28,204 nucleotides of DNA from a virus. The notes beneath the pieces were generated by a model. The model searched no databases, was not told the origin of the DNA, and saw only the letters and a program-made list of their open reading frames with translations. The stretch covers positions 1 to 28,204 of IMG/VR virus record IMGVR_UViG_3300050821_012261, one strand, 5' to 3'. This document shows positions 180 through 26,999 of the stretch, in pieces. How positions within the stretch are numbered: the stretch's first letter is position 1; every line of letters begins with the position of its first letter. The translations under genes were made by a program, and so were the position numbers.

Positions 180-1952
180 GTGCCGCGTCGGGGTTCTCCG
201 TACGGGCCTGAGTACGAGCGGGCCAAGGCGCGGCTGCTGGCGGGGCTGCCGTTGTGCTGGCATGGCTGTGGTCGTCGGGCGACCGAGGCTGACCACGACC
301 CGCCGTTGTCGCGCCACGAGCACGTGGCGGGGTCGGGCTGCTGCCGGCTTCGGCCAGCGTGCGGCCCGTGTCAGCGCCGTCAGGCGATCGGGCTGGCGAA
401 TGAGACGCGGGTGGGTCGGGCGGTGCCGGTGGTGGGAGAGGAGCTGGTCGAGGAGCTCGAGCCGGTCGGGTTCGACGTCGACGACGTGGTGTGGGACGTC
501 GAGTGGCTGGAGGATCTGCGGGAGCTGCCGGTGGAGGCGGTGTGGCCGCGGCTGATGACGTTGCCGCACCCGCGGGCGGTGGGGTCGTTGGGGCGGGAGT
601 TCGAGTGGTGGGTGCGGGCGCGCACCGGGCGGCGGCTGCGCTGGTTGCAGCGGCTGTTCGTGCGCCGGCTGCTCGAGGTTGACGCCGCCGGGGCGCTGGT
701 GTGGGAGACGGCGCTGCTGACGATGGCGCGCCAGCTGGGGAAGTCGTGGCTGCTGCGGGAGGTGATCATGTGGCGGCTGCATCAGGGCGGCCGGTTCGGT
801 GAGCCCCAGGAGATCGCTCACATGGCGATGACGGTGCAGCACGCCCGCCAGGTCCTCGAGCCCGAGCAGCGCTGGGCGAAGACCAGGACGGGCTACGACA
901 TCGCCGAGGCCCACGACGACGAGTCGATCACCTGGCAGGCCGACGAGTCCCGGTGGCTGGTGGTGTCGAAGGGGACGAAGCGCTCGGGTGGGGCGTACGG
1001 CAAGTCGACGGCGCTGGGGGTGGTGGACGAGGCGTGGGCGGTGCGGGCCGCGGCGGTCGACGACGCCCTGGAGCCGACGACGGTGGCGGTGGCCCAGTCG
1101 CAACTGCTGTTGGTGTCGACGGCGCATCGGATGGCGACGTCGCTGATGTTGGACCGGCGGGCCGCTGCGCTCGAGGTGTTGGACGACGGCTCCGAGGGTG
1201 ACCTGATCGTGGAGTGGTCGGCGCCTTACGACTCCGAGCTCGAGGACCGTGAGGCGTGGCGGCTGGCGTCGCCGCACTGGTCGGCGCAACGTGAACGGCT
1301 GATCGCCAAGGCGGTGCGCCGGGCGTTGTCGGGGCAGGCGTCGGACGATCCTGACGAGCCGGACCCGGTGCAGGCGGTGCGGTCGCAGTGGCTGAACATC
1401 TGGCCGCGACGCCTGACGGTGGGTGGCGGCGAGGCGCTGGTCGACGTGGCGACGTGGCGCAGTTTGCGCCGGCCGGTCGACGCCACCCCGGGCCGCCTGT
1501 GGGTGGCGGTCGAGGACAACTACGGCCACGGCGCGGCGGTCGCCGCGGTGGCGTCGCTGGGCGCCGACGTGTTCGAGGTCGACGGCTGGCTGTGTGTCGA
1601 CCGGTTCGGCGCCGTCGCGGAGGCCGAGGCGTTGATCGCCGGGCACCGGTCGCCGGCCACGCTGATCCTCGGGGCGTCGCTGGACAGGGCGCGCCGGTCG
1701 TGTGTGCGGGCGAGCTCGGCCGAGACCCGCTACGGGCTGCCGCTGCTGCGCTCGCTGGTTGCGCAGCGCCGCCTGGTCCACGACGACACCCCCGAGCTCG
1801 ACGAGCAGTTCGCCGCGGTGCGGGTGCGTGAGGTGATCGGCGGGCTGCACCTCGTCGGCGGCAAGCGCTCCGACCTCGTGCGTGCCACGTGCTGGGCGCT
1901 GCGCGAGGCCGTCGTGCGGCGGCCGTCGCCGGAGATCCACACCGGTGTGTGA
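180..1952 (+). CDS. terL: Terminase large subunit with N-terminal HNH-like zinc domain
   Basis: This is the 590-residue DNA-packaging motor, which translocates and cuts phage DNA at the portal. The N-terminal 75 residues look like an HNH/treble-clef zinc module: C26 and C30, a DHDPPL motif (D38-H39), then C61xxC64. The usual final Asn/His of the module is Gln (Q65). The ATPase follows, with a Walker A-like ARQLGKS (183-189), a Walker B VVDEA (281-285) and an STAH coupling motif (313-316). An RNase H-like nuclease domain probably begins near VAVED (442-446). GTG is chosen because no ATG or GTG lies in frame just upstream. No separate small terminase gene was found. Identification as terminase is strong. 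The HNH reading is probable but possibly degenerate. Confidence 0.88.
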   Translation: MPRRGSPYGPEYERAKARLLAGLPLCWHGCGRRATEADHDPPLSRHEHVAGSGCCRLRPACGPCQRRQAIGLANETRVGRAVPVVGEELVEELEPVGFDVDDVVWDVEWLEDLRELPVEAVWPRLMTLPHPRAVGSLGREFEWWVRARTGRRLRWLQRLFVRRLLEVDAAGALVWETALLTMARQLGKSWLLREVIMWRLHQGGRFGEPQEIAHMAMTVQHARQVLEPEQRWAKTRTGYDIAEAHDDESITWQADESRWLVVSKGTKRSGGAYGKSTALGVVDEAWAVRAAAVDDALEPTTVAVAQSQLLLVSTAHRMATSLMLDRRAAALEVLDDGSEGDLIVEWSAPYDSELEDREAWRLASPHWSAQRERLIAKAVRRALSGQASDDPDEPDPVQAVRSQWLNIWPRRLTVGGGEALVDVATWRSLRRPVDATPGRLWVAVEDNYGHGAAVAAVASLGADVFEVDGWLCVDRFGAVAEAEALIAGHRSPATLILGASLDRARRSCVRASSAETRYGLPLLRSLVAQRRLVHDDTPELDEQFAAVRVREVIGGLHLVGGKRSDLVRATCWALREAVVRRPSPEIHTGV

Positions 1953-16768: not shown

Positions 16769-17251
16769 TCACCCGGCGCTGCGCCGACGGGCCAGCACGA
16801 AGTGGGCGAACGACACGACGTCGGTCAGCTCGGCGTCGGTGAGCTCGGCGGCTAACGCCTCCAGGCGGTTCACCGGCTGTTGCGCGCTGAGGGTCCGCAG
16901 CGCGGTCTCAAGCTCGTCGAGGCGCGAGCGCAGCTCCTCGACGCTCGCCACCGACGCCGCCGGAACGTCCCAGCCGGCCTCGTCGGGCGGTTCGTACAGA
17001 TCCCAGGCACTGCGCCCCAGCATGGCGTCGAAGTGCGCAAGCGTCTGGGGCTGGTAGTTGCGAACCTTCGCCTGCTCGAGCGCGCACAGCGTCGAGTAGG
17101 GCACGTTCCAGTAGGCGGCAGCCGCTTTCTGCGAGCGCATGCCGCGCGCCTTCTTCAGCTCCGCGGCGAGACGTCGCAACCCCATGGCGCGGTCGGACCC
17201 TAAGGCGCCGCCTTCGTCTGGGCTCCCTGGCCCTACTCCGCTCTCATCCAT
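16769..17251 (-). CDS. XRE-family immunity repressor (CI-like)
   Basis: This is a 160-residue protein from ATG 17251. GTG 17275 (168 residues) and ATG 17185 (138 residues) are alternatives, and no start has a convincing Shine-Dalgarno sequence, so a leaderless mRNA is possible. An HTH_3-type domain lies at about residues 26-80 (LRRLAAELKKARGMRSQKAA, then YWNVPYSTLCALEQAK). The C-terminal part includes a coiled-coil-like segment (VEELRSRLDELETALRTL) suited to dimerisation and a terminal helix. No LexA-type autoprotease motif was seen, so induction may not rely on self-cleavage. It diverges from the excisionase-like gene, forming the lysis-lysogeny switch. Confidence 0.8.
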   Translation of the reverse strand: MDESGVGPGSPDEGGALGSDRAMGLRRLAAELKKARGMRSQKAAAAYWNVPYSTLCALEQAKVRNYQPQTLAHFDAMLGRSAWDLYEPPDEAGWDVPAASVASVEELRSRLDELETALRTLSAQQPVNRLEALAAELTDAELTDVVSFAHFVLARRRSAG

Positions 17252-17275
17252 GCCGCCCGGGGGAAAGTTACCCAC

Positions 17276-17430
17276 AGCGTCGGCCAGCGCACCAAGACTT
17301 CATGGTGCGTGTGAATGCGTCCAGATGAATCAGCACCCCTGAGCCGTCTGACTTGTCCACTTGCACCTCACAGGAATGCGGTGCTTAGGTGACCGCGAGG
17401 CTGCTTCTCGATGAGCATGGGGGAAGTTGA
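17276..17430. promoter_or_regulatory. Repressor/excisionase divergent control region
   Basis: This 155-base gap lies between two divergent genes. It holds a perfect inverted repeat, cgcacca (17288-17294) and tggtgcg (17303-17309), with an 8-base spacer, near the repressor start: a good candidate operator. A weak promoter for rightward transcription might be ttgcac (17361-17366) with ttaggt (17385-17390). A good Shine-Dalgarno (gggggaag, about 17420-17427) precedes the excisionase-like gene. Confidence 0.5.
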
Positions 17431-24396: not shown

Positions 24397-24741
24397 ATGC
24401 CGTGGTTCCGCCTCGAGGACAGCTTCTACAACCACCCCAAGGTCACCCGCGCCGGCAACGCCGCCACCGGCCTGTGGGTGCGCTGCGGCACCTACTCCGC
24501 CCAGTACCTCACCGACGGCATTGTCCCGGCCGAGGTCGCCCACACCTTCGGCCGCGCCACCGAGATCGACAAGCTGCTCCGCACCCGCCTGTGGGTCGAG
24601 ACCAAGGAGGGATTCCTGATGCCCGACTACCTCGAGTACAACCCGTCCGCCGAACAGGTCCGCGCTGACCGCGCCGCCGCCCGCGACCGACAACGCCGAG
24701 CCCGCGAAGCCGCCCAAGCCCGACGCAACGGTCACCCATGA
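24397..24741 (+). CDS. Replication-initiator-like winged-helix protein
   Basis: This is a 114-residue protein. The start PWFRLEDSFYNHPKVTRAGN followed by GLWVRCGTYSAQYLTDGIVP matches the N-terminal domain of phage replication-organiser proteins found in actinobacteria and their phages. The end (PDYLEYNPSAEQVRADRAAA) is a basic helix. The longer forms of this family continue into a DnaD-like or other domain; here it is short. It probably marks the origin or loads the host helicase together with the 24888 product. Confidence 0.65.
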   Translation: MPWFRLEDSFYNHPKVTRAGNAATGLWVRCGTYSAQYLTDGIVPAEVAHTFGRATEIDKLLRTRLWVETKEGFLMPDYLEYNPSAEQVRADRAAARDRQRRAREAAQARRNGHP

Positions 24742-25513: not shown

Positions 25514-25720
25514 TCAGGTCTCCCGGTCGATGATGTTCTGCACCGTCTGATGCGCCACCCCGGCGGCGTCGGCGATCACCCGCAGCGACCCGCCGGCTCG
25601 GTGGGCGGCACGGATCGCCCGATCCCGGGCCTCCTGGGCATCTCGCAGACGCTTGGCGTGGCCACGCACCGAGCGCAGCGCCACGGACAGTTCGGTCACG
25701 GTCGAGTCGGTGACTGGCAT
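25514..25720 (-). CDS. Small helix-turn-helix DNA-binding protein
   Basis: This is a 68-residue protein with a strong Shine-Dalgarno (GAGGAG) just before ATG 25720. A charged helix (ALRSVRGHAKRLRDAQEARD) is followed by RAIRAAHRAGGSLRVIADAA and GVAHQTVQNIIDR, an H-T-H pair of the type found in small phage and plasmid regulators. It is the downstream gene of a two-gene minus-strand unit facing the dyad operator at 25959-25996 and is a candidate binder of that operator. An antitoxin or Cro-like regulator is equally possible. Confidence 0.72.
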   Translation of the reverse strand: MPVTDSTVTELSVALRSVRGHAKRLRDAQEARDRAIRAAHRAGGSLRVIADAAGVAHQTVQNIIDRET

Positions 25721-25751: not shown

Positions 25752-25791
25752 GGTGGCCGGGACCTTCGAGCGATCGACGGTCCCGGCCACC
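25752..25791 (-). terminator. 13-bp hairpin between two minus-strand genes
   Basis: ggtggccgggacc (25752-25764) and ggtcccggccacc (25779-25791) are exact reverse complements with a 14-base loop. It lies just after the stop of the 53-residue gene (25796) and 31 bases before the HTH start (25720), both on the minus strand. It may terminate the first gene partially, setting a ratio between the two. Confidence 0.6.
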
Positions 25792-25795
25792 GGGG

Positions 25796-25957
25796 CTAGC
25801 CGAAGAGTCGGCGCTCGATCTCCTCGATCCATCCCATGAGTCGCATCGCTTCGACCATCTGGGTGCTGGCGATCGCTACTTCGTAGGCAATCCACAGCAG
25901 ATCGAGGAGGTCTCGGGCTTCCTCCGCGGCCAGGATGATGTGCTCATCCATGCCCAT
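25796..25957 (-). CDS. 53-residue helical protein facing a dyad operator
   Basis: Reading the minus strand from ATG 25957 (or 25951) gives 53 residues, largely one or two amphipathic helices (DEHIILAAEEARDLLDLLWI, then TQMVEAMRLMGWIEEIERRL), ending TTCGGCTAG. It was not recognised. The start abuts the dyad operator, so leaderless or very short-leader translation is likely. Below-average GC suggests recent acquisition. With the HTH gene it may form a regulator pair or toxin-antitoxin-like unit, which is inference. Confidence 0.6.
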   Translation of the reverse strand: MGMDEHIILAAEEARDLLDLLWIAYEVAIASTQMVEAMRLMGWIEEIERRLFG

Positions 25958-25958
25958 A

Positions 25959-25996
25959 GTCTAACGACTAGACGCCGGAACGTCTACCTGTTAGAC
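25959..25996. promoter_or_regulatory. Four-box dyad operator (GTCTA-N5-TAGAC twice)
   Basis: Two 15-base inverted repeats of the form GTCTA-N5-TAGAC lie side by side (25959-25973 and 25982-25996, 23 bases centre to centre). Together they form a larger dyad: gtctaac (25959-25965) mirrors gttagac (25990-25996) and tagacg (25969-25974) mirrors cgtcta (25981-25986) around ccggaa. It sits between divergent genes starting at 25957 (-) and 26013 (+), ideal for a repressor that controls both directions. Confidence 0.75.
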
Positions 25997-26012
25997 AGGG
26001 AAGGCGGGCGTG

Positions 26013-26285
26013 ATGAGTAACAGAACCGACCGGCTGGGCAGCGACGAGCCGCCGTCGTTCACCTGCCCGCGCTGCGGTGCCATCAGCTGGAATCCGAACG
26101 ACGCCCGTGAGGGCTACTGCGGGAGGTGCCACGACTGGACCTCGCTGAGCCCGGGCGTCTACGACGACGGGGCCGGGCTTCATCTCGACGTGGCCGAGAT
26201 GCTGCGCGCCAACGGCTGGCCGAACACGGCCGCCCGCGACATGTTCGGGACGATCGAGGTACACGACGAGCCCGACGATGGCTGA
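26013..26285 (+). CDS. Small zinc-ribbon protein
   Basis: This is a 90-residue protein (GTG 26010 is one codon earlier). CPRCGAISW (about 18-26) and CGRCHDW (about 36-42) form a standard zinc ribbon, here with a disordered start. It is the first gene of the terminal + strand block and diverges from the 53-residue gene across the dyad operator, so its expression is probably regulated there. Confidence 0.65.
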   Translation: MSNRTDRLGSDEPPSFTCPRCGAISWNPNDAREGYCGRCHDWTSLSPGVYDDGAGLHLDVAEMLRANGWPNTAARDMFGTIEVHDEPDDG

Positions 26286-26550
26286 CGACCCGCTGCGCAT
26301 CATCGTCGAAGCCGCCGGCCTCACCATCGACGTCGACGCCTACCACCGCAACCGGTCGCAGCACGACCTCGCCGACCGCATCCTCACCCACCTCGGCCTC
26401 GCCAACGACCACGTCATTGAGATGCGCATCACCGAGGCTGCCGTCGAGATCGACCGCTACATCCTCGACGCCGACGGCCGCCCCACCTTTGACGACGAAG
26501 GCTGCGCCGTCGAGACCCTCCGCTACAACCTCGCCGGGCCCGACCGCTGA
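26278..26550 (+). CDS. Small protein, unknown
   Basis: This is a 90-residue protein. The strand/helix mix (DPLRIIVEAAGLTIDVDAY, HVIEMRITEAAVEIDRYIL) was not recognised. It overlaps the zinc-ribbon gene by eight bases and shares TGATG-type coupling with the cupin gene. Confidence 0.55.
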   Translation: MADDPLRIIVEAAGLTIDVDAYHRNRSQHDLADRILTHLGLANDHVIEMRITEAAVEIDRYILDADGRPTFDDEGCAVETLRYNLAGPDR

Positions 26551-26999
26551 TGCGCATCGACCCGTGGCCCCGGCTGGTCCTGCCGTCGGTCAGCGGGATC
26601 CCCGACGTCGACGGGCTGCACCGCAGCGTCATCGTCCACGCGGACGGCGCGCCGTACCTCGAGCGTTACCACCTCGTCGACACCAGCCACGTGCAGGTCC
26701 GCATCCACCACTGGCTGAGCGGCGACGACGAGCGCGCCCCGCACGACCACCCGTGGGCCAACACCACCCTCGTCCTCACCGGCACCCTCATCGAGCACAC
26801 GGAGACCGGCGGCTACGCCCTCGGCCCCGGCAGCGTGGTCACCCGCCATCCCACCGACCCGCACCGCGTCGAGCTGGTGTCCGACGACGCCTGGACCCTG
26901 TTCGTCACCGGGCCCATCGTGCGTGACTGGGGGTTCCACACACCGACCGGCTGGGTCCACTGGCGCCGCTGGCCTCTCGCCGGGCACTACGAGAGCTAG
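26550..26999 (+). CDS. Cupin-fold protein
   Basis: This is a 149-residue β-barrel protein. APHDHPWANTTLVLTGTLIE carries metal ligands H-x-H (about H65 and H67) and a later Glu, followed by GPGSVVTRHPTDPHRVEL with a third His and then WTLFVTGPIVRDWGFHTPTG. That is the cupin pattern seen in a group of phage and bacterial proteins of uncertain substrate. It may bind a metal and modify a small molecule, or serve structurally. TGATG coupling to the preceding gene. Confidence 0.7.
   Translation: MRIDPWPRLVLPSVSGIPDVDGLHRSVIVHADGAPYLERYHLVDTSHVQVRIHHWLSGDDERAPHDHPWANTTLVLTGTLIEHTETGGYALGPGSVVTRHPTDPHRVELVSDDAWTLFVTGPIVRDWGFHTPTGWVHWRRWPLAGHYES

Follow-up and report, generated by a model that had tools for sequence, protein, structure and literature searches.

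The 38-bp block that separates two divergent operons in the window (the whole stretch of DNA analysed here, a 28,204-base virus record with 71% GC from an actinobacterial-type small phage) is quite probably the operator through which a phage-encoded 68-aa mini-HTH protein of the ClpC2 class represses its own gene, and probably governs the divergent rightward operon as well. In the proposed mechanism, one dimer of the 68-aa protein would bind each GTCTA-N5-TAGAC dyad, and the two dyads would cover the -35 and -10 elements of a minus-strand promoter that is probably leaderless. Given this overlap, the 68-aa protein would repress its own operon, which consists of a gene for a 51-aa or 53-aa product and the HTH gene; as 13 bp separate the end of the symmetric block from the GTG start codon of the Zn-ribbon gene, repression probably extends to the rightward operon. 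What the analysis itself shows is the presence and rarity of the dyads, the link with homologous HTH genes, the covariation of box and HTH within one lineage, the promoter-like geometry and the homology to ClpC2.

The motif GTCTA-N5-TAGAC is present in exactly two copies in the entire record, 23 bp apart (Table 1). The sequence-only reading had described two adjacent copies within a block that is itself a dyad around ccggaa, flanked by minus-strand ORFs for a 53-aa protein and a 68-aa HTH protein and by a plus-strand Zn-ribbon ORF, and all of this is confirmed, with 26 of the 38 positions equal to the reverse complement. The 23-bp separation is also correct but corresponds to 2.2 helical turns rather than "about two". 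A search of the record with spacers of 4-8 and one mismatch allowed finds no further sites, and there is no degenerate third site at the next 23-bp register beside the two sites and no box near positions 17276-17430. The chance expectation of an exact site is 0.00 (none of 100 dinucleotide shuffles contained one), and 300 Markov copies of the whole genome contained 2 single sites in total. The proximal dyad ends 1 nt from the ATG at 25957 on the minus strand, the same distance as for the ClpC2 operator in the chromosomal locus L223.

Table 1. Features in and around the 38-bp block
Feature	Positions	Strand	Basis or remark
Proximal dyad GTCTA-N5-TAGAC, GTCTAACGACTAGAC	25959-25973	no strand	exact pattern
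Distal dyad GTCTA-N5-TAGAC, GTCTACCTGTTAGAC	25982-25996	no strand	exact pattern
8-bp centre of the overall 38-bp dyad (ccggaa)	25974-25981	no strand	reverse-complement match
-35-like TAGACG, inside the distal box	25981-25986	minus	17-nt spacer to TAGACT, 8/12 matches
-10-like TAGACT, inside the proximal box	25958-25963	minus	6 nt before ATG at 25951
Possible -35-like TAGACG	25969-25974	plus	mirror of the minus-strand layout; weak, sequence only
Possible -10-like TAGACA	25992-25997	plus	weak; position 6 is not T
First gene, 53 aa (51 aa with a leaderless start at 25951)	25796-25957	minus	ORF, prediction
13-bp perfect-arm hairpin between the minus-strand genes	25752-25791	minus	-49.8 kcal/mol for 80 nt, z = -5.0
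68-aa mini-HTH regulator, proposed box ligand	25514-25720	minus	profiles, model, homologue boxes
Zn-ribbon protein, 91 aa (Cys pairs), GTG start	26010-26285	plus	ORF; divergent from the HTH operon

On the minus strand, the block reads TAGACG-N17-TAGACT-N6-ATG, with the ATG at 25951, an arrangement comparable to TTGACG-N17-TATGGT-N6-ATG at clpC2 in L223 and to TTGAAT-N17-TAGAAT-N6-ATG at the HTH gene of L215; the -10/N6/ATG geometry is common to all three. Given that the letters of the -35 and -10 elements are those of the inner and outer half-sites, the 23-bp period is explained as 6 + 17. The boxes thus likely overlap a leaderless minus-strand promoter, which the sequence-only reading had overlooked, and the same geometry suggests that the 53-aa ORF may start at its second ATG, yielding a 51-aa product. 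A scan for consensus promoters and terminators returned nothing in the window at its thresholds, the minus-strand pair scoring 8/12 against a promoter threshold of 9/12, and the plus-strand -10-like TAGACA was missed by both promoter scans.

The closest characterized parallel is ClpC2 of mycobacteria and other actinobacteria, an autorepressor for which binding has been proven by EMSA and whose operator, CGTCAAC-N5-GTTGACG, stands 1-2 nt ahead of the ORF, has further upstream copies in many species and overlaps the -35 and -10 elements of a promoter whose mRNA was inferred to be leaderless (PMC10030653). In actinobacterial genomes, we recovered ClpC2 operators that are paired at a distance of 28-29 bp and stand beside ORFs recognized by an HTH profile (A4) that, among 1078 ORFs, matches ClpC2 ORFs only. 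The window shares with this system a homologous HTH, tandem dyads of GTC-type half-sites, a proximal dyad 1-2 nt before the ORF, the overlap with -35 and -10 elements and the N6 stretch from -10 to ATG, the promoter features being predicted in silico in the window. The two differ in the half-site (GTCTA in the window vs GTCAA(C) in ClpC2), in the inner spacer by the same count (5 vs 7) and in the dyad period (23 bp vs 28-29 bp); in addition, the window protein lacks Clp_N, is phage-borne, is encoded second in its operon and faces a divergent gene. The ClpC2 operator sequence itself is not found at the block, where GTCTA-N5-TAGAC stands instead. With a different half-site and no Clp_N domain, the block would work like a ClpC2 operator but is not one. 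For the window, we infer binding, dimerization, cooperativity, repression, the transcription start and relief of repression from sequence comparison.

The predicted model of the 68-aa protein (mean pLDDT 92) consists of a long helix (residues 5-41) followed by two HTH helices (46-53 and 57-67), a fold that would suit a dimer whose recognition helices are spaced by one turn. A Foldseek search started with this model identifies generic HTH matches, none at E<0.001, and the sequence itself matches HTH models only, weakly and of the HTH_38/HTH_23-like kind. A match to HTH_3/XRE, which a CI/Cro-type immunity switch would call for, was not detected, the chain carries no Clp_N domain, and no relatives were found in viral contigs and phage records at the sensitivity of a single-sequence search. 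An hhalign comparison of the 68-aa family with ClpC2 yields a probability of 92.5% (E 4.7e-7, 35 columns), and a comparison with the box-linked Streptomyces-type HTH yields 97% (E=1.1e-10).

An upstream GTCTA-N6/7-TAGAC with at most one mismatch is present in six of the eight chromosomal homologues that best match the 68-aa protein, compared with 59 of 4400 shuffled windows (1.3%); the binomial P of ~1.6e-10 is somewhat optimistic because the range of spacers scanned, 4-8, was widened after reading of the upstream regions had first shown spacers of 6 or 7. Strict N5 boxes were not found near chromosomal homologues. The six site-bearing homologues include one HTH-Clp_N fusion and one fusion of the HTH to a ClpX-type zinc finger; L155/L251, a close relative, is an HTH-Clp_N fusion. 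No sites were found at the 14 lower-scoring HTH homologues, whose HTH is mostly C-terminal. Chromosomal HTH genes with GTCTA-N6/7-TAGAC upstream are exemplified by L155/L251, L151/L252, L148/L250 and L152/L254, several of which have TAGACA-N17-TANNNT promoters. Given that the same architecture precedes chromosomal Clp_N and ClpX-zinc-finger fusions, it appears to be that of a general autorepressor, and the idea that the block is a special lysis-lysogeny switch finds no support.

The exact tandem pattern is present also in 12 other viral contigs, for which ~0.04 occurrences would be expected by a rough estimate that assumes ~4e10 bases in IMG/VR (our own figure), and in 13 stretches of bacterial genome contigs; by rough collection size, the expectation is well below one. 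When a gap of 0-30 between the dyads is allowed, 55 contigs are recovered, with pair spacings clustering at 22-24 and 42-45 bp; a scan for single GTCTACTNAGTAGAC sites yields 69 contigs, approximately the chance level by a rough estimate of collection size, and served as the control. A literature search for the motif itself returned nothing relevant. In the viral contigs, the boxes occur in two main settings, namely replication-initiator genes in AT-richer contigs and small HTH genes in GC-rich ones, and in most of the latter a small HTH ORF starts close to the boxes and is oriented away from them. An earlier HTH profile, seeded with box-linked proteins, was partly circular and was replaced with one rebuilt, to avoid circularity, from the 68-aa protein plus eight chromosomal homologues whose loci had been identified independently of box scans. 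At E<1e-3, a search of 7713 ORFs with the rebuilt profile detects 15 matches outside the window, of which 12 abut boxes; most of these 12 ORFs represent one Streptomyces-type lineage and hence few independent events. In the single-site control, only one of the 70 sites (L083) has a significant HTH match.

Additional evidence comes from HTH homologues of the MTDWEKQL type, which were identified without using boxes and have two to four boxes 38-118 bp upstream in 15 of 17 cases; among the five loci that were not known before from the box scans, three have boxes. Boxes are also present at two chromosomal copies of this type in a Streptomyces-like genus, and no HTH of this type was found in named phage and plasmid records. 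In the two boxless loci, L196 and L202, the HTH coding region is continuous with an upstream stretch. By eye, this stretch is the end of a GIY-YIG domain, apparently fused to the HTH; in L010 and L014, a GIY-YIG nuclease-like domain is encoded in an operon with the small HTH.

A search for the L010/L014-type lineage identifies seven loci. Two of these, L215 and L218, have two exact boxes each, and L216 and L217 have one box each, with two mismatches; all four have a recognition helix of the MSRAG[VI]IKLH type. In L219 and L220, the recognition helix is MTR[HQ]GVVKLH, the usual box is absent and both share GTAAACTCAGTTACC upstream of the HTH start, where the GTCTA box normally stands; L221, a weak match of this search, has no boxes. 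The comparison of L215-L218 with L219/L220 thus reveals covariation of the recognition helix and the box within one lineage. Across the box-linked HTHs, recognition helices vary (AHQTVQN, NHERART, SRAGAIK) with a constant half-site. Taken with the ClpC2-like architecture, the boxes at homologous HTH genes support the initial suggestion that the block would be a two-site operator for the small HTH protein.

The composition of the minus-strand operon raises the question of a toxin-antitoxin operator, with the 53-aa product as a small toxin and the 68-aa HTH protein as an autoregulating antitoxin, a reading that we consider unlikely. The A4 profile matches RelI (PDB 9sdc, E=5.7e-5), the antitoxin of the RelS-RelI system of M. 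tuberculosis, which places RelI in the same HTH group, and the HTH gene in the window is likewise the second of a two-gene operon, a toxin-first, antitoxin-second order that fits RelS-RelI or HicA-HicB (PMC13284704). The authors of that study relate the HTH of RelI to that of ClpC2; they detected neither inverted repeats ahead of relSI nor any sign that RelI binds DNA (PMC13284704). Furthermore, tandem GTCTA boxes precede a HicA-like and then a HicB-like ORF in L133, the latter having a C-terminal HTH, and a HicB-like protein with a C-terminal HTH of the same type in L136. Nevertheless, RelS is a 78-aa protein of the RelE/ParE fold, whereas the 53-aa product is predicted to be an all-helical two-helix hairpin (AF2 single-sequence model, pLDDT 93.6) that is not RelE/ParE-like and has neither a family match nor, in single-sequence searches, relatives in viral contigs or phage records. 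The box-linked Streptomyces-type HTH genes have no constant partner gene, and in the window the two genes are separated by a strong hairpin. This hairpin, which has no U-tract, is a possible attenuator that might set the ratio of the 53-aa and HTH products. Behind it, the HTH gene has its own Shine-Dalgarno-like GAGGAG; being second in its operon, it lies 240 bp from the boxes, while in most relatives it is the first gene.

The other main setting of the boxes raises the possibility of replication-origin iterons, bound by the replication protein encoded 1.2 kb away (24397-24741), whose gene matches PHROG replication initiation proteins. In the AT-richer contigs, replication-initiator genes (Phage_rep_O, E=1.9e-8; HTH_36) contain or adjoin the repeats; in seven box contigs, the tandem falls within Phage_rep_O-type genes or next to winged-helix initiators, and L007 has four tandem repeats at 23 bp, one of them mismatched. 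For the window, however, we regard this possibility as very unlikely: the two sites have no degenerate third neighbour, they lie between divergent genes at a promoter-like position rather than in the initiator gene, and the window initiator belongs to a family different from Phage_rep_O. The GTCTA..TAGAC repeats at 22-24 bp within Phage_rep_O-type genes (L003, L006, L008, L009, L012, L013, L011, also L135 and L144) resemble the lambda iterons in gene O, and several genome matches for them are Patescibacteria-type contigs. It is also quite improbable that the boxes are bound by another host or phage protein, e.g., the putative regulator encoded at 16769-17275, or that they form a symmetric divergent promoter without a dedicated regulator. 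TAGAC elements at -35/-10 spacing in both directions are compatible with the latter option, and in Bacteroidetes the same tandem is found next to NtrC-type response regulators. On the other side, the motif is confined to the tandem pair in each of three whole carrier genomes (G001-G003, 2-5 Mb), which argues for a locally encoded ligand and against a host regulon; the region at 17276-17430 has no box; and the boxes associate with HTH genes of the family of the 68-aa protein. In L134, L139 and L142 (Bacteroidetes; also L138 and L140), tandem GTCTAA-N3-TTAGAC-type dyads at 23 bp are found, by eye in the first three loci, between response-regulator-like and outer-membrane-efflux-like genes, apparently an unrelated use of the same motif. 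Because the same tandem occurs in such unrelated settings, as well as in phage replication genes, the motif alone cannot identify its ligand.

Several observations count against the assignment of the block to the 68-aa autorepressor, namely the differences in inner spacers between subfamilies (5 in the window, 6-7 in the closest chromosomal relatives and 7 in ClpC2), the position of the HTH gene, the differing recognition helices, the weak -35/-10 pair (8/12) and the even weaker plus-strand promoter, the occurrence of the motif in unrelated settings, the 14 siteless weaker homologues and the lack of inverted repeats at RelI. Two phage systems provide partial parallels. The repressor gp33 of mycobacteriophage BPs is also an actinobacterial phage regulator with tandem palindromic sites between divergent promoters, but it uses a 12-bp palindromic half-site, CGACATATGTCG, spaced by 5 or 8 bp and including one divergent copy, and the BPs genome has several operators along its length (PMC4557955), whereas the window has a single operator of two near-perfect 15-bp dyads. 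The Ltr/RinA regulators of staphylococcal phages resemble the window in combining a regulator gene with repeats upstream of packaging genes, but Ltr-type proteins are activators of ~130 aa encoded just upstream of the late promoter (PMC13123087); in the window, a divergent regulator and boxes that cover the promoter suggest repression.

With respect to the divergent side, the Zn-ribbon ORF is the first in a rightward run of small genes that extends to 28092. The Zn-ribbon gene was considered as the box-linked gene and rejected given that none of the ten relatives found has boxes, so that a tie between the operator and this gene finds no support. The suggestion of divergent control appears reasonable, considering that 10 of the 12 records in which TerL could be placed have the operon opposite the HTH gene heading towards TerL on the same strand, a count for which we combined the positions ourselves, with G005 placed by eye and the window included only on the premise that the genome ends join and with a weak TerL match. 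G694 and G006 do not conform; in L102, by eye, a replication operon faces the boxes instead. Thus, the module may often, albeit not universally, sit at the start of the packaging-side operon. Tentatively, these genes could represent an undescribed module of actinobacterial temperate phages, in which a ClpC2/RelI-class mini-HTH gene diverges from a packaging-bound operon with the GTCTA tandem operator in between, forming a second, late-region switch independent of the lysogeny switch; its members would read a common GTC(T/A)A code with half-sites spaced by 5-7.

The assignment proposes a ligand and an operator for a class of tiny HTH proteins that are common in actinobacterial phages and chromosomes and mostly have no assigned function. 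It would extend to phages the operator logic of ClpC2, i.e., tandem dyads on a leaderless promoter, offers a simple testable code of GTCTA or GTCAA half-sites with 5-7 bp between them, and hints where DNA-binding activity could be sought in the RelI antitoxin group. The conserved position between the HTH gene and a terminase-bound operon also makes late-region control testable in these little-studied phages. The putative large terminase of the window (180-1952) has a weak match to phrog_2 (E=2.7e-4) and no Pfam match, and its N-terminal part resembles, by eye, an HNH-type Cys/His segment. In the rightward operon, the region 26550-26999 encodes a cupin protein that matches a PHROG family annotated as cysteine dioxygenase, and this region shows small DNA matches to other phage records.
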